This document shows positions 10,209 to 34,800 of a stretch of DNA of 34,800 bases, piece by piece. A model generated the notes under the pieces. It searched no databases. It had not been told where the DNA came from and was given only the letters and a program-made list of their open reading frames with translations. Numbering within the stretch: the first letter of the stretch is position 1; every line of letters starts with the position of its first letter. This DNA is from a virus. The stretch is taken from IMG/VR virus record IMGVR_UViG_3300027754_000253, positions 1-34,800 of that record. One strand, written 5' to 3'. The translations under genes were made by a program, and so were the position numbers.

Positions 10209-10562
10209 ATGGCAAATGAAGATAACTTAAAAAAGTTTAGTTCTGAATACCAGCCTGAAAAAAATGGGCGACCAAAGGGAAGTAAAAACCGAGCTACAAT
10301 AGTTAAGAAATGGTTAGAGGTAAATCAAAACTTAAAGAATCCTTTAACAGGGCAAGATGAATTTTTAACTCAAGAAGATTTAATTACTTTGGCAATTATC
10401 AAAAGAGCAAGGGATGGGAATGTAAACGCTTACAATGCTTTAATGGATAGTGGCTATGGCTCACCAGCTCAAACAGTAAATCAAACAATAACTGAATATC
10501 CTATATTCCCTGGAATAGATTTGAATGTTGATAAAGACGACAGCTCAGCGGAAGATATTTAA
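10209..10562 (+). CDS. terS: Probable terminase small subunit (DUF5681-like)
   Basis: A 117-aa protein, opening with a basic GRPKGSKNRATIVKKWLEVN segment (about 20-39) of the DUF5681 type and followed by helical QEDLITLAIIKRARDGNVNA and NALMDSGYGSPA. These proteins stand directly upstream of terminase large subunits in Bacteroidetes phages and probably recognise DNA for packaging. Here it overlaps the large-subunit gene by 38 bases. The start ATG at 10209 is the first of the frame. Role inferred from position and domain. Confidence 0.75.
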   Translation: MANEDNLKKFSSEYQPEKNGRPKGSKNRATIVKKWLEVNQNLKNPLTGQDEFLTQEDLITLAIIKRARDGNVNAYNALMDSGYGSPAQTVNQTITEYPIFPGIDLNVDKDDSSAEDI

Positions 10563-11694
10563 ACTCAAAAAAAGGGTTAGAATTGTTCGTGGAGGTACTT
10601 CAGCTTCCAAGACGTTTAGTATTATACCATTCCTAATTACTCACGCTTACAACGAACCTAATAGCGAAATAAGTATAGTTGCTGAAACCATTCCACATTT
10701 AAAACGTGGTGCCTTAAGGGACTTTTTAAAGATAATGGATTTAGTCGGTTTGTATAACGATTCAAGTTTCAACAAGTCAAGTTTAATTTATACGTTTCAA
10801 AATGGTTCTTATATTGAATTCTTTAGTGCAGATAGTGAAAGCAAATTAAGGGGCGCAAGACGTGATGTATTATTTGTAAATGAGTGTAATAATATAACCT
10901 GGGAATCTTACTATCAATTAGCCATTCGAACTCGAAAGTTTATTTATTTAGATTACAATCCTGTTTCGGAGTTTTGGGTGGATAAAGAATTGATTAATGA
11001 TGTTGATTCCGAAATGGTTATACTTACCTACTTAGATAATGAAGCACTTGACAAATCAATAGTTCGTGAAATTGAGAAAGCAAAAGAAAAAGCTAAAACA
11101 AGTAAGTACTGGGAGAATTGGTATAAGGTTTATGGCTTAGGGCAAATCGGTACGTTACAGGGTACGGTCTTTGAGAATTGGTCCATTGCTCCTTCCATTC
11201 CAAAGGATGCTGAATTGATTGCTTATTCTTTAGACTGGGGATATTCAAACGACCCTACAGCTTTAGTTGCTTGTTACAAGTCGGGACAACAATATTACTT
11301 CGATGAATTGATATATCAAACTAAACTAACTAACTCAGATATTATTGACAAACTAATTAAACTCGGAGTATCGGAATATTCAGATATCATAGCAGATAGT
11401 GCAGAACCTAAGTCGATAGAAGATTTAAGACGTAGAGGTTTCTCGGTTAGTCCAGCTAAGAAAGGACCCGATAGCATACGTGCTTCCATATCTTTATTGC
11501 AAGAGATTCACTTTAAGGTAACCGAGAATAGCACTAACTTAATTAAGGAGTTAAGGAACTATTGCTGGGATGTTGATAGGGATGGTAATAAAATGCAGAA
11601 CCCAGTTGATGACAATAACCACGCTATTGATGCGATTAGATATTTGGCAATGAATAAGTTAAGTAGCTTATCTGATTGGATGGACTTTGAGTAG
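10525..11694 (+). CDS. terL: Terminase large subunit
   Basis: A 389-aa terminase ATPase/nuclease of the PBSX-like group. GGTSASKT (23-30) is the Walker A motif, VLFVNE (115-120) Walker B, and the RNase H-like nuclease has D in SLDWGYSNDPTALV, D in DIIADSAEP and D-x5-D-A-I-R in NNHAIDAIRYL near the C-terminus. It cuts and pumps phage DNA into proheads using ATP. The nuclease residues are all visible and the length is normal. The start overlaps terS; a hairpin overlaps the stop codon. Confidence 0.94.
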   Translation: MLIKTTAQRKIFKLKKRVRIVRGGTSASKTFSIIPFLITHAYNEPNSEISIVAETIPHLKRGALRDFLKIMDLVGLYNDSSFNKSSLIYTFQNGSYIEFFSADSESKLRGARRDVLFVNECNNITWESYYQLAIRTRKFIYLDYNPVSEFWVDKELINDVDSEMVILTYLDNEALDKSIVREIEKAKEKAKTSKYWENWYKVYGLGQIGTLQGTVFENWSIAPSIPKDAELIAYSLDWGYSNDPTALVACYKSGQQYYFDELIYQTKLTNSDIIDKLIKLGVSEYSDIIADSAEPKSIEDLRRRGFSVSPAKKGPDSIRASISLLQEIHFKVTENSTNLIKELRNYCWDVDRDGNKMQNPVDDNNHAIDAIRYLAMNKLSSLSDWMDFE

Positions 11695-11788: not shown

Positions 11789-12403
11789 ATGATGATACCA
11801 ACAAATGTAAATAACCTAACAATAAAGGAGTTTATCGAATACGAGAATATAAGAACTTCAAGTTTAGAAAACATCGATAAGATAATTCAGATAGCTTCGA
11901 GCTTTACTGATATTTCGGTATCGGAATACGAAAACATGAGTTTTAACGAACTTGAAAAAGTAAAGAGTAAAGTATTACTACTTATTAATTCAAAGCCGAA
12001 CACAAGGTTAAAGAATACGTTTTGGCACGATGGGACAAGATACAAAGCATGTAAGGATGAAAAAGATTTTAAGACAAATCAATACACAGCATTAAAGCAA
12101 TATGAAACCGATGTAATTAATAACTTGCATAAAATATTAGCATTGATATATGTTAAGTGTCCTGTATTCAGTAAGTATAAATTTAACTCCGATAACGTAG
12201 AACAAATAAACGATGTTATTTATAATTATGGAAAGGTGGGTGATGTCTATGGGACACTTTTTTTTTACTCGAACAGGTCCGAAAAATTGAAAGCGGATTT
12301 GTTGAACTCTTTGGAGGAGGTGCAGAAGGAGATAGCGATTCACATGGAGGAAGTGAACAGGGAGTTAAATCTTTCAGAAAAGAATATGGCTGGTACTTTA
12401 TAA
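11789..12403 (+). CDS. Tail assembly chaperone-like protein, frame 0 product
   Basis: A 204-aa protein: LTIKEFIEYENIRTSSLENI, ELEKVKSKVLLLINSKP, then WHDGTRYKACKDEKDFKTNQ and a helical middle ending LHKILALIYVK. This resembles the first part of chaperones located between terminase and tail genes. At 12258-12266 lies a run of nine Ts. A second frame (-1) is open from here to 12540 and encodes a conserved-looking end. Without the shift, the protein ends YSNRSEKLKADLLNSLEEVQ and continues as a helix to NMAGTL. Both ends look like real protein. A TTTAAACATTAT leader lies 4 nt before the start. Confidence 0.7.
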   Translation: MMIPTNVNNLTIKEFIEYENIRTSSLENIDKIIQIASSFTDISVSEYENMSFNELEKVKSKVLLLINSKPNTRLKNTFWHDGTRYKACKDEKDFKTNQYTALKQYETDVINNLHKILALIYVKCPVFSKYKFNSDNVEQINDVIYNYGKVGDVYGTLFFYSNRSEKLKADLLNSLEEVQKEIAIHMEEVNRELNLSEKNMAGTL

Positions 12404-12540
12404 TCGATTCAATTACTGGTGGCGATCCTTTTAAAGAAGATGAACTAATGGAGTGGTCGATTGCTAGGTTTTTAAATCGTATTCAATATATGAAGCATAA
12501 AGCGGAAAGTGAACAATTTGCACAATCAATAAATGAATGA
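12244..12540 (+). CDS. -1 frame extension of the tail chaperone (programmed frameshift candidate)
   Basis: The frame at -1 relative to the 204-aa gene is open from 12244 to the TGA at 12538-12540. After slipping on T TTT TTT (12259-12265), the ribosome would continue LLEQVRKIESGFVELFGG, a G/S-rich linker, then KEYGWYFIIDSITGGDPFKE and ARFLNRIQYMKHKAES. The GWY...GGDP...FLNRIQYxKxKAE pattern resembles the C-terminal domain of chaperone pairs in related phages, and its stop codon overlaps the start of the next gene (12533). The slipped product would be about 250 aa (159 plus 91). Lambda gpG/gpGT is the parallel. An indel in the T run is the alternative. Confidence 0.6.
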   Translation, partial: CLWDTFFLLEQVRKIESGFVELFGGGAEGDSDSHGGSEQGVKSFRKEYGWYFIIDSITGGDPFKEDELMEWSIARFLNRIQYMKHKAESEQFAQSINE

Positions 12541-13126
12541 AGTTGAAAAAATATTAGAAGCTTTCGGAACTAAGGTTGTGGAAGATTTGCGTAAAAGCTT
12601 ATCGGACAAACTACAAGCTAAAGCAGCATTCTATCAAAGTAAATATAAAGGTGCATCACCTAATCCTGGAGAAAGTGCTTTGGGTGCTTCAATTAAATAT
12701 AGGGTTGTGGATTCGGCTGATGGTATTAAATTAAACGTTTATTTGAATGATTATTGGGAAGCGGTTGATACAGGTCGTAAACCAGCTGGAGTTAGTCAAG
12801 GTGCAAGAATAGATAAATGGATAAAGTCAAGAAACTTAATACCAGGTTTTCAAACTAACAATTTAAAAGATAGGTTAAAAAAACAAGCTGAAAATAAAAC
12901 TAATAGAAAAAAGAAAGTGTTAAAGGTAATGAAGTTTTCAGAAGCTGTAAAAGCAATGGACTTTTTAGTAAGAAGAAAATTAAAAGATAAAGGATATTGG
13001 GGGATTCACTTTTTTGATGAGGTTGTAAACGATGGAAGGCAAGAACAATTAACAAAAGATATAGCAGCTGCTATGAAAAAAGACATAGAGATAATAATAA
13101 AGACTAATAGATATGAAAAAGAATAA
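12533..13126 (+). CDS. HK97 gp10-like tail completion protein
   Basis: A 197-aa protein with the gp10-like pattern: helical N-terminus (LRKSLSDKLQAKAAFYQSKY), a beta section (SIKYRVVDSADGIKLNVYLN), the diagnostic YWEAVDTGRKPAG, and a basic C-terminal half (WGIHFFDEVVNDGR, then KKDIEIIIK). Such proteins close the tail tube end or join tail to head. It overlaps the -1 frame extension by eight bases. It lies next to other tail genes. Confidence 0.75.
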   Translation: MNEVEKILEAFGTKVVEDLRKSLSDKLQAKAAFYQSKYKGASPNPGESALGASIKYRVVDSADGIKLNVYLNDYWEAVDTGRKPAGVSQGARIDKWIKSRNLIPGFQTNNLKDRLKKQAENKTNRKKKVLKVMKFSEAVKAMDFLVRRKLKDKGYWGIHFFDEVVNDGRQEQLTKDIAAAMKKDIEIIIKTNRYEKE

Positions 13127-17282: not shown

Positions 17283-19295
17283 ATGGCAACTGAAAAAATA
17301 GGAATAGAAGTCGAAGTTAAGGGAGCTGAAAAAACAATCAGTTCTTTTAAAGATTTAAAAACAGCGATTAAGGCAGCCAAGGATGAACAGATAGCAATGT
17401 CTGAAAAATTTGGTGCTTCATCGGTTGAAGCTGTAAATGCATCAAAAAAAATAGCTGAGTTAAAAGATAAAGTTGATGACTTAAATGATTCAAGTAAAAG
17501 TTTAAAGGGTAGTGGGTTTGAAATGTTAAAACAAGGATTTGGTCAAGTTCGTGAGGGTTTGATGAATTTAGATTTTGACAAAGTAAAAACAGGAATAACA
17601 GCAATGAGTTCGGGGTTTGTGTCAATGGGTAAAGCTGCAATGGCATCATTACAAGGAATTAAAGGAGCTATTATAGCAACAGGAATAGGGTTGTTGGTTG
17701 TTGCATTAGGAGCTATTTATGCTTACTGGGATGATATTAAAGGTGTGGTCGATGGATTAACTCCTGAGTTAAAAAAGCAAAATGATTTAGCAAATGAAAA
17801 TTTAAAAACTCAGCAAGATAAATTAAATGCAATAAGTGGCCAAGAAAACATATTAAAATTACAAGGCAAAACTGAAAAAGAAATATTGCAATTAAAAATG
17901 AAGCAAACCGATGAAGCCATTGCAGCATCGGACATAGCAATAGCGCAAGCGGAACAAACTAAGAAAGCACAAGTTGAGGCATCAGAAAGAAATAAAAATA
18001 TTTTACAAGGTATAATTGCTTTTGTAACTTCTCCTATATCTATTTTATTACAAGGCATAGATGCTATTGGTAGTGCATTTGGTAAAAACTTTGGATTGTA
18101 TGAAGGGTTTACTGGTGGTATAGCAAAAATGGTTTTTGATCCTGATGAAGTAGCAGCAGAAGGCGATAAAGTAATTGCAGAAGCAAAAGCTGTAAATGCT
18201 AAATTAAAAAATGATAGAGCTGGATTACAATTATCAATTAATGCTATAGATACTAAGGCAGCTGAGGATAGAAAAAAATTAGGAGCAGATGCTGTTAAAA
18301 ATGCTAAGGAAGCTAAAGATAAAGAATTACAAAATCAAATTGAATTACAAGCTAAGTTATTAGAATTAAGAACTCAATTAATAAAAGACGAACAAGAAAA
18401 AGAACAAGCAATATTAAAAAACAAATTCTTATCGGACCAACAAGATTTATATAATAAAGGAGCTAATGCTGAATTATTAAAAGCGTTAAATGATAATTTT
18501 GAACAAGACAAATCAGTAATAAGTGATAAATATTTAAAAATAAAACAAGATAAAGAAGCAGAAGCAGAAGCTAAAAGGCAATCTAATGCCGATGTTGCTA
18601 TAGCATTAATTGAAGAAGCTGAAAGGAAAAAAGAACAATTAGAAGATGATGCAAGAAAATTAAAATTACAAAAAGAACAACAATTACAAAGAGATATACT
18701 TGAATCGGTAAACATTGCAGCTCAAACAGCTTTATCAGTTCAAAAAACTTTATCGGATACTTATTACATGAAGGAATCACAAAAAAATAATAAACTTTAT
18801 GCCGATAAATTAAAAAATGTAAGACAAGGTTCTAAAGAAGAAAAAGCAATATTAGAACAAAAGGCAGTTGATGAAAAAGACTTAGCTCGTAAACAATTTG
18901 AAACACAAAAGAAATTCAATAGAGCTTCTGCTATATTAAATGGTATCTTAGGGTTAGGTGCTATCTTCGCAATACCCGATCCAACGTTAGGAATACTTTC
19001 TGCAATAAGAGCAGTCGCTTTAGTTGCAACAACAGCCGCAAACATTGCTGCCATAAATGCTACACAATTTGATGAAGGCGGAGCTACAGCGGGAGGAATA
19101 CCAGCAGCAGCAGATGCATCACCAACAACAAGTCAAGCTCCAGCAATATATGGACCAGGTCAAGGGCAATCAACTACATTTACTGGTAATCAAAATAATA
19201 ACTTTGCTCCAGTTAAAGCATATGTCGTAGAAACTGAAAACCGAAGCACTACAAATAGAGTAAACAAATTAGTATCGGAATCCACTTATGGATAA
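17283..19295 (+). CDS. Tape measure protein
   Basis: A 670-aa protein dominated by Ala, Lys, Glu and Gln, with long predicted helices and coiled coils (for example residues 165-240 and 320-560). A hydrophobic segment, GAIIATGIGLLVVALGAIYA at about 126-145, and further ones at 560-600 match the tape measure layout. The C-terminal 80 residues are Gly/Ala/Gln-rich. It determines tail length: at about 0.15 nm per residue, known for other phages, a tail near 100 nm would be expected. It follows the tail-tip genes, an unusual order. Helical density and size are the main evidence. Confidence 0.82.
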   Translation: MATEKIGIEVEVKGAEKTISSFKDLKTAIKAAKDEQIAMSEKFGASSVEAVNASKKIAELKDKVDDLNDSSKSLKGSGFEMLKQGFGQVREGLMNLDFDKVKTGITAMSSGFVSMGKAAMASLQGIKGAIIATGIGLLVVALGAIYAYWDDIKGVVDGLTPELKKQNDLANENLKTQQDKLNAISGQENILKLQGKTEKEILQLKMKQTDEAIAASDIAIAQAEQTKKAQVEASERNKNILQGIIAFVTSPISILLQGIDAIGSAFGKNFGLYEGFTGGIAKMVFDPDEVAAEGDKVIAEAKAVNAKLKNDRAGLQLSINAIDTKAAEDRKKLGADAVKNAKEAKDKELQNQIELQAKLLELRTQLIKDEQEKEQAILKNKFLSDQQDLYNKGANAELLKALNDNFEQDKSVISDKYLKIKQDKEAEAEAKRQSNADVAIALIEEAERKKEQLEDDARKLKLQKEQQLQRDILESVNIAAQTALSVQKTLSDTYYMKESQKNNKLYADKLKNVRQGSKEEKAILEQKAVDEKDLARKQFETQKKFNRASAILNGILGLGAIFAIPDPTLGILSAIRAVALVATTAANIAAINATQFDEGGATAGGIPAAADASPTTSQAPAIYGPGQGQSTTFTGNQNNNFAPVKAYVVETENRSTTNRVNKLVSESTYG

Positions 19296-22147: not shown

Positions 22148-22179
22148 AGCTCAGGCCCGTAAGCTTGAGCTTTTTTTTT
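22148..22179 (+). terminator. Intrinsic terminator after the capsid-associated gene
   Basis: AGCTCA (22148-22153) pairs with TGAGCT (22166-22171), with a further GC/GC pair inside. Nine Ts (22171-22179) follow. This is a textbook rho-independent terminator, so the capsid and the following gene end a transcription unit here. Confidence 0.8.
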
Positions 22180-33706: not shown

Positions 33707-33750
33707 GTGTTAAAATTAGGTTATTAAGCTGTGTTAAAATTAGGTTTTAA
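33707..33750. repeat. Tandem pair of a 20-bp leader repeat, 24-bp period (right)
   Basis: Two copies of GTGTTAAAATTAGGTT(A/T)TTAA at 33707-33727 and 33731-33750. The arrangement mirrors that at 507-550. On the minus strand the downstream copy ends two bases before the ATG of the Cys-rich gene, so it probably serves as leader for that gene. Confidence 0.7.
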
Positions 33751-34730
33751 TATATTTTTCCGTTAATAATTTTTAGATTGTAAAAAGTATAATTACCTGT
33801 TTTAATATCTAATTCGCAGTAGGCGAAGCCAGTATTCCATTTGTTTATTGGCATATAGTAAGGAGTTTTACCACACAAACAACCAACAGAGTGAACGCTA
33901 AATACATCCCCATACATTGAAGCTTCAGTATTACTTGATGTTTTGTGATAGTGGCCAACAACCACATTCTCTAAAGTTTTTAAAAAAGTTCCTCGAGCTG
34001 GATTAACTCCACCGCTTCCACCAAATAATTCATGTCCATGAAGTACAGTTAATTTACCAATACGAATAGGCCTTTTTTCTTTTACTATCTCAATCTTTAA
34101 TTCGCCTAATTTTAATCTATTTTCTAATTTAAACTCAGGATCATCAAAAATTTCGGGTGCTTTTAAAAACAACCATTTCTCCCAGCGTTCATCGTGATTG
34201 CCTAACTTAAAAACTATTTTAGCTTTCGGAAAATGTTCACGTAACGAACTTAAAAAGATACGTGCAGCTTCAAACTCTTGATGAACTTGTCTTTGTCTCC
34301 AGTCTTTTTCATGTCTCGATATACCAGCAAAGTCTAAAACATCGCCATTGATTAAAATACAATTTACTTTTTTTTCTTTACCATAATTAATAGCTTTTTG
34401 TATTGAGTCGTTATCCTGGTAAGGTATATGTAAGTCCGATATGATTAAGGTTCTTGACTGACTAATTTCGTATGGTTCAAAAGTTTCTGCATAGGATTCA
34501 GGCATTACAAACTCAATGTTTTGATCTAAGAACTCTCTACTTGCTAATTTTGATTTAGTTTTTTCACCTTTTTGGCCACGATAATATCTTAGGCAACTTC
34601 TAACAGCATCAACATCTTTAAAAGTTTTATTGTTTTCTGCATAGATTTTTTTAGCCAAAGTCAAAGATGGTAGCTTCGGGAACTTAGTCAAATAAGATTT
34701 AATTAAATTACTTACAAATTCATTTCTCAT
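33747..34730 (-). CDS. Calcineurin-like metallophosphoesterase, right copy
   Basis: A 327-aa protein identical to that at 547-1530 except K61 for Q61. The same metal motifs are all present: SDLH (98-101), GD (129-130), GNHDER (177-182), HGH (231-233), GHYH (259-262). About 40 base differences separate the two genes (by eye, roughly 96% identity), nearly all silent; one instance swaps adjacent Ser codon types (TCA AGT versus AGT TCT). This is long-term purifying selection, not assembly noise within one sequence. It overlaps the NinG-like gene start as on the left. Confidence 0.9.
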   Translation of the reverse strand: MRNEFVSNLIKSYLTKFPKLPSLTLAKKIYAENNKTFKDVDAVRSCLRYYRGQKGEKTKSKLASREFLDQNIEFVMPESYAETFEPYEISQSRTLIISDLHIPYQDNDSIQKAINYGKEKKVNCILINGDVLDFAGISRHEKDWRQRQVHQEFEAARIFLSSLREHFPKAKIVFKLGNHDERWEKWLFLKAPEIFDDPEFKLENRLKLGELKIEIVKEKRPIRIGKLTVLHGHELFGGSGGVNPARGTFLKTLENVVVGHYHKTSSNTEASMYGDVFSVHSVGCLCGKTPYYMPINKWNTGFAYCELDIKTGNYTFYNLKIINGKIY

Positions 34731-34800
34731 TATTTTTTTATTTTTAGTTTATAATTTTTTGCTAAGGTAATTAATTCATCTTTTGCAAATTTATAACTTC
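34730..34800 (-). CDS. ninG: NinG-like endonuclease, C-terminal end (partial, runs off the right edge)
   Basis: The last codons of a second ninG copy. The 71 bases are identical to 1530-1600, giving the last ~22 residues, ending ITLAKNYKLKIKK. Its N-terminus lies outside the window. Confidence 0.85.
   Translation of the reverse strand, partial: SYKFAKDELITLAKNYKLKIKK

Follow-up and report, generated by a model that had tools for sequence, protein, structure and literature searches.

A run of at least nine Ts probably recodes a candidate tail chaperone gene in likely Bacteroidota phages, possibly by RNA polymerase slippage

The stretch of viral DNA analyzed here (34,800 nucleotides of IMG/VR record IMGVR_UViG_3300027754_000253, referred to as the window) carries, directly after a terminase gene, a gene in which two overlapping reading frames meet at a run of nine Ts (T9). 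An earlier note had read this arrangement as a probable programmed −1 frameshift in a tail chaperone gene. The locus thus raises the question of whether both frames are used, which machine would slip at the run and what the products might do. The features relevant for this question are the following:

10525..11694, + strand: terminase large subunit gene, directly upstream of the recoded gene; 56% identity to Flavobacterium psychrophilum phages
11789..12403, + strand: 0-frame ORF, 204 aa, predicted short (G-like) product; its first 159 codons are common to the long product
12258..12266, + strand: T9, candidate slippage run
12259..12265, + strand: in-phase heptamer T_TTT_TTT inside T9, candidate ribosomal −1 shift site
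12265..12540, + strand: −1 frame extension, 91 codons plus TGA, predicted C-terminal (T-like) domain of the 250-aa product
12267..12403, + strand: dual-coding overlap with lowered variation at all codon positions
12388..12480, + strand: core of the conserved domain GWY...GGDP...FLNR in the −1 frame
12533..13126, + strand: next gene, 197 aa, window protein without family match
17283..19295, + strand: tape measure protein gene, about 5 kb downstream and non-adjacent; phrog_24676 at 1.2e-18 and a match to a Cellulophaga phage tape measure protein

The nine Ts at 12258–12266 are present as described earlier, and the 0 frame reads across them as CTT TTT TTT TAC. The −1 frame is open over 297 bases (12244–12540) and its TGA (12538–12540) overlaps the ATG at 12533 of the next gene, which also agrees with the earlier description. 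Fusion of 159 and 91 codons gives 250 aa, the length that had been predicted for the long product beside the 204-aa short one. Only two T9 runs were found in the 34.8-kb window and the second one (22171–22179) lies between ORFs. In the window and in four relatives (L041–L044), the 0 frame continues for 45–67 codons beyond the run.

In IMG/VR, searches with the −1 domain and with the 0-frame product yielded about 40 close relatives each, and all of those with a complete site carried exactly T9. When we quantified the variation at the three codon positions in 33 distinct close relatives, we obtained values of 0.16/0.08/0.56 for the 0 frame upstream of the run and of 0.07/0.02/0.51 for the −1 frame beyond the 0-frame stop, where 25 synonymous changes stood against 1 non-synonymous change. 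The overlap (12267–12400) varied little at every codon position (0.11/0.24/0.20) and T9 itself did not vary at all. It had been claimed that the 0 frame reads on sensibly to 12403 and that about 140 bases are dual-coding, and the constraint on this overlap bears this out. At the level of sequence comparison, these data confirm that both frames are under selection and that both are used. Since both frames are selected and T9 is invariant in close relatives, the recoded gene (11789–12540) very probably gives rise to a 204-aa and a 250-aa product.

The arrangement was also kept in distant relatives (L041–L044, L099, L163), in a marine clade (L105–L119, L173–L181, L188) and in a third clade (L198–L204), and all of them have nine or more Ts in the run. 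A comparison of the run in relatives had been proposed as a check, and it yielded no relative with a single frame; some distant ones have T10 or T12 with the two-frame arrangement intact. The AlphaFold2 model of the 0-frame product (pLDDT 79.7, pTM 0.72) matched gp38 of the Nonlabens phage P12024S (E 3.4e-8). The gene for gp38 lies directly after the terminase gene and carries T9 in the window's phase (CTT TTT TTT TAT), and its −1 frame runs on into an ORF annotated as gp39. Phage P12024L carries the equivalent pair gp40/gp41, which also has T9 in this phase and also follows its terminase gene directly. The N- and C-domains of both Nonlabens (Persicivirga) pairs are homologous to those of the window. 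hhalign comparison of the window's clades with the P12024S clade gave an E-value of 3.2e-6 for the N-domains and 98.5% with an E-value of 2.5e-15 for the C-domains. In contrast to the window, where we describe one recoded gene, the Nonlabens pairs are annotated as two separate hypothetical genes and the shift was previously unannotated; gp38 and gp39 correspond to phrog_32199 and phrog_38404, both of unknown function. Annotated orphan pairs of this kind can be one recoded gene. The annotated 55-aa genes gp39 of P12024S (L208, 23663–23830) and gp41 of P12024L (L273, 3028–3195) are the ends of −1 frame extensions.

A scan with the C-domain alone, for which the query was trimmed to be independent of the slip site, retrieved at least 596 IMG/VR relatives, and 9, 10 or 12 Ts were present in 80 of the 80 best of them. 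Two scans of bacterial genome contigs yielded no relative. Two sets of candidates were rejected. Flavobacterium phage 6H, an N-domain fold match, does not carry this device, because its run comprises no more than six Ts and a stop follows immediately in its −1 frame. The BFVD entries A0A6J5N0W0 and A0A6J5SVK3, which matched both models and might have been single-frame fusions, gave poor C-domain alignments (rmsd 12, probability 0.3–0.4). Among open-access papers, we found no description of this gene family or of slippage in Bacteroidota phage tail chaperones. We regard the recoding of this gene as a known kind and its likely route as a variant, and consider the novelty provisional.

To describe the run across the family, we used 172 distinct sites, which cover three deep clades and the P12024S clade. 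All of them have at least nine Ts (T9 in 145, T10 in 26, T12 in 1). T7 or T8 runs were absent from these sites, though any run holding an in-phase T_TTT_TTT was accepted. Every member contains this in-phase heptamer, and no other heptamer type was seen in any member fetched. The numbers of Ts beyond the heptamer (left, right) were (1,1), (0,2), (2,0), (2,1), (1,2), (0,3), and (1,4). Most sites have one extra T per side; other arrangements include GAT TTT TTT TTG/TTA (none left, two right) and TTT TTT TTT CTG (two left, none right). The run was seen in all three codon phases and the phase differs between lineages, but gains and losses of Ts on the two sides compensate, as does each apparent phase change. 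This pattern suggests that the conserved unit is a total length of at least nine Ts and not only the heptamer. In a shuffle test, about 7 of 74 representatives were expected to have fewer than nine Ts if the two sides were independent, the observed number was zero, an outcome that did not arise in any of 20,000 shuffles, but this test ignores descent and only about three phase changes look independent on the tree. These are a left loss in the marine clade, a left loss in L338 and a right loss in L328/L342, the last of which is present among the 172 sites and absent from the 74 tree rows.

Codon usage around the run was also inspected. In the marine clade, which has GAT before the run, Leu codon 4 is always TTG or TTA; TTR accounts for 47 of 158 Leu codons there and CTN for 70% of the Leu codons of the gene. 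Constraint from the −1 frame could contribute to this preference. Both Phe codons of the run are always TTT, although about one in three Phe codons of these genes is TTC. Other T runs within coding parts of the contigs reach 7–8 Ts. The other T9s listed are located at the very start of stop-free stretches and thus probably before start codons; the one exception is the same slip site. In the P12024S clade (L210–L353), a conserved TTTAGG follows the run immediately and encodes Leu-Gly in the 0 frame and Phe-Arg in the −1 frame. It puts a TAG into the +1 frame, so that messages that lose a U would stop within 1–3 codons. We did not count this stop as an independent argument, since in the P12024S clade it traces back to this one conserved motif and values elsewhere were near those of the controls.

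How might the two products be made? We propose that two proteins that share their N-terminus are expressed from one gene (11789–12540). Faithful transcripts would be translated to the 204-aa short protein. At T9, the hybrid of the U run with dA may slip inside RNA polymerase, so that a minority of messages would gain one U (U10), and ordinary translation of these U10 messages would go on in the −1 frame and yield the 250-aa protein with the GWY...FLNR domain. The RNA–DNA hybrid in RNA polymerase comprises 9–10 bp (PMC5009743). In many bacteria, selection against polymerase slippage shows at about nine A/T, eight As have been called non-slippery, and a 9A/9T run that is conserved among homologs has been considered very likely purposeful slippage (PMC1088944). 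The run studied here lies inside the gene, has nine or more Ts and is conserved in length among homologs, and it appears independent of both codon phase and mRNA structure. A downstream stimulatory fold, for which the earlier note had proposed a check, gave no signal in 60 representatives (mean z −0.04 vs. −0.20 and 0.07 in controls). Programmed transcriptional slippage is favored over ribosomal −1 frameshifting, with somewhat better than even confidence, because at least nine Ts are always present, the phases vary, downstream structure was not detected, nine is the published threshold and U_UUU_UUU is only weakly shifty. We infer from these patterns that RNA polymerase and not the ribosome would be the slipping machine, and the product ratio and the chaperone role discussed below are to be read in the same conditional way.

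For phage tail chaperones, the known rule is a −1 shift by the ribosome, and this counts against slippage. On this reading, two tRNA-Phe would slip back by one base at U_UUU_UUU on an unaltered U9 mRNA, and we consider this a possible route to which we give less than even weight. The in-phase X_XXY_YYZ heptamer of every member and the invariable TTT codons for Phe are what it predicts, though any T9 contains T_TTT_TTT; that any nine-T run holds this heptamer in phase is, for its part, a point against slippage. The same applies to the prevalence of T9, which is expected in most lineages without length selection from the flanking Leu/Val/Ile (before) and Tyr/Cys (after). Low-level shifting may, moreover, need no structure. 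Ribosomal shifting is known for phage chaperone genes such as that of lambda (PMC5009743), and an efficiency of 6–7% was measured for HK97-like genes (PMC3711429). However, if the heptamer alone were conserved, runs of 7 or 8 bases would suffice and should occur, yet none was found among the 172 distinct sites and the two sides compensate. A stimulatory element (3′ structure or 5′ SD-like sequence), which is common and not always needed, was not apparent either: the downstream z values indicated no structure, and the SD-like sequences listed all came from the window's clade, where these bases also encode protein. In E. coli, U_UUU_UUU is a weak heptamer and far less shifty than A_AAA_AAG (PMC5009743). 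Thus, of the programmed −1 shift that had been claimed, the shift at T9 and the two products are strongly supported, but its ribosomal reading fits worse than slippage of RNA polymerase.

Two further explanations would do without any programmed shift. If the run were a sequencing or assembly indel, or if the gene were phase-variable or decayed, the true run would be T8 or T10 with one frame. Homopolymers are error-prone and some phage genes carry such indels, but T9 was found in contigs that stem from dozens of different metagenomes as well as in the cultured phages P12024S and P12024L, the overlap is under selection in both frames and the 0 frame remains open well past the run. We consider this explanation extremely improbable, and at the level of the family, the sequence comparisons already refute it. 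Alternatively, the −1 domain might be a gene in its own right that is translated independently (by internal initiation or coupling), and the T run would then be incidental. gp39 of P12024S is annotated in this way from an internal ATG, and in some relatives the −1 frame offers a TTG or ATG ahead of the domain. However, no ATG, GTG or TTG precedes the GWY motif in the −1 frame of the window's clade, which makes independent initiation unlikely there. In addition, the overlap upstream of the −1 domain is constrained in both frames and the run is kept everywhere, so that a separate gene is also very improbable. Both polymerase slippage and the ribosomal shift lead to an identical protein across the junction (..T-L-F-F-L-L-E..), and for this reason, mass spectrometry cannot separate these mechanisms, but RNA alone can.

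The hallmark of tail assembly chaperones is a short and a long form produced through a shift close to the 3′ end. A G/GT-like role of the two products is therefore plausible, and in our classification the gene may resemble G/GT chaperones in its action without being a proven one of them. Most likely, the roles of the two forms correspond to those of lambda gpG and gpGT: many short and few long copies would assist the tape measure protein as chaperones, bring in the tail tube protein and then leave. For lambda, the gpG:gpGT ratio is about 30:1 (PMC5009743). Reading frames, selection and conservation all agree with a short and a rarer long product with a common N-terminus and a shift at the 3′ end, both products being predicted ones. 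No Pfam or PHROG match was obtained for either domain of the window gene, no sequence relative was found in the PDB, and hhalign comparison with lambda G and HK97 gp13 was negative, but the known chaperone families share little sequence among themselves. In a Foldseek search with the N-terminal product, the HK97 chaperone 2ob9 ranked seventh with a weak E-value of 2.2, and structural comparison of the two was also weak (VIA Z 3.8, rmsd 3.1, 62 residues). When the C-terminal model (pLDDT 72) was used as the query, no informative fold match resulted. The earlier designation as tail chaperone is doubtful: the extension into the −1 frame toward the 3′ end, a weak fold match to HK97 gp13 and the surrounding neck and tail genes speak for it, but there is no sequence match to known families and the gene order is unlike that of lambda. 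It is conceivable that the recoding is real and that its products are two forms of another assembly factor, for instance one for head–tail joining. The location of the gene between terminase and neck genes, kilobases away from the tape measure gene, and the lack of a sequence match to known chaperones speak for such a factor, but the extension from short to long near the 3′ end and the fold match speak against it, and we consider it unlikely.

The order of genes in the window is terminase, recoded gene, neck-like gene, two large genes, and tape measure. In P12024S, terminase is followed by gp38/39, the neck-like gp42 and, further on, gp49 with a weak tape measure match. gp42 matched phrog_5 at 4e-4, and PF04883 below the cut-off (E 0.03); by synteny with it, the gene at 12533..13126 is probably a neck or tail completion gene (HK97 gp10-like). 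A Bacteroidota host is likely, because the terminase resembles those of Flavobacterium psychrophilum phages and the tape measure protein matches Cellulophaga phages. Two relatives (L042 and L043, region upstream of 5414) have almost the same recoded gene, but the C-terminal halves of the preceding terminases differ, suggesting a recombination joint immediately ahead of the recoded gene. At its ends (507–1600 and 33707–34800), the contig has a 1.1-kb direct repeat with 95.9% identity that holds a metallophosphoesterase gene (547–1530 and 33747–34730). The two copies are not identical and thus possibly reflect variation between strains at the ends of a genome that is circular or terminally redundant.

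Runs of A were noted in other phages. In the Cellulophaga phages phi18:1 (L206, 9386), phi12:1 (L357, 2856), and phi17:1 (L358, 2885), the two genes that immediately precede the tape measure gene adjoin at an A run. This run is A9 with the second ORF in the +1 frame in phi18:1 and phi12:1, and A10 with the second ORF in the −1 frame in phi17:1. This difference in length changes which shift is required but leaves both ORFs intact, as would be expected from polymerase slippage, or else from an error in the sequence of one record. Flavobacterium phage FPSV-S2 (L205; 13109, 13455) has an annotated tail assembly chaperone ORF with A11 inside and A9 at its end, and a frameshift is unannotated there.

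The recoded tail chaperone is a textbook case of ribosomal frameshifting, which is regarded as near universal for this gene. We consider the chances about evenly balanced that RNA polymerase slippage at nine or more Ts, in place of the ribosomal frameshift, determines the ratio of the tail chaperone forms in a large and mostly uncultivated group of tailed phages of Bacteroidota. If this is true, the ratio of the two forms would be fixed at the RNA level by a host enzyme, and run length would offer a simple test for other recoded orphan pairs. The cultured pair P12024S/P12024L makes slippage testable.

Like lambda G/GT and HK97 gp13/gp14, the gene described here is predicted to give two products by a shift into the −1 frame near its 3′ end, with the rarer product carrying an additional domain at its C-terminus, and it belongs to a tail gene cluster. 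It shares no sequence similarity with these genes. The earlier note had placed it in the same genomic location as lambda G/GT, but this detail is weak: lambda and HK97 G/GT are located between the major tail and tape measure genes, a usual and not strictly defining position, whereas the window gene follows the terminase gene and is separated from the tape measure gene by about 5 kb. The lambda ribosomal shift site is G_GGA_AAG, whereas the window gene has nine or more Ts in a row. Programmed transcriptional slippage on A/T runs is used by the Shigella mxiE and spa genes, by Thermus dnaX and by IS transposases. With these, the window gene shares an in-gene run of about nine A or T of conserved length, and there too, the extended product comes from mRNA with an altered run length. 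Unlike them, it is a phage morphogenesis gene present in hundreds of phages, and slippage is here a prediction from sequence. If the prediction is true, the ratio of the two forms would be what evolution preserves and the molecular route would be replaceable, as with dnaX of Thermus and E. coli.
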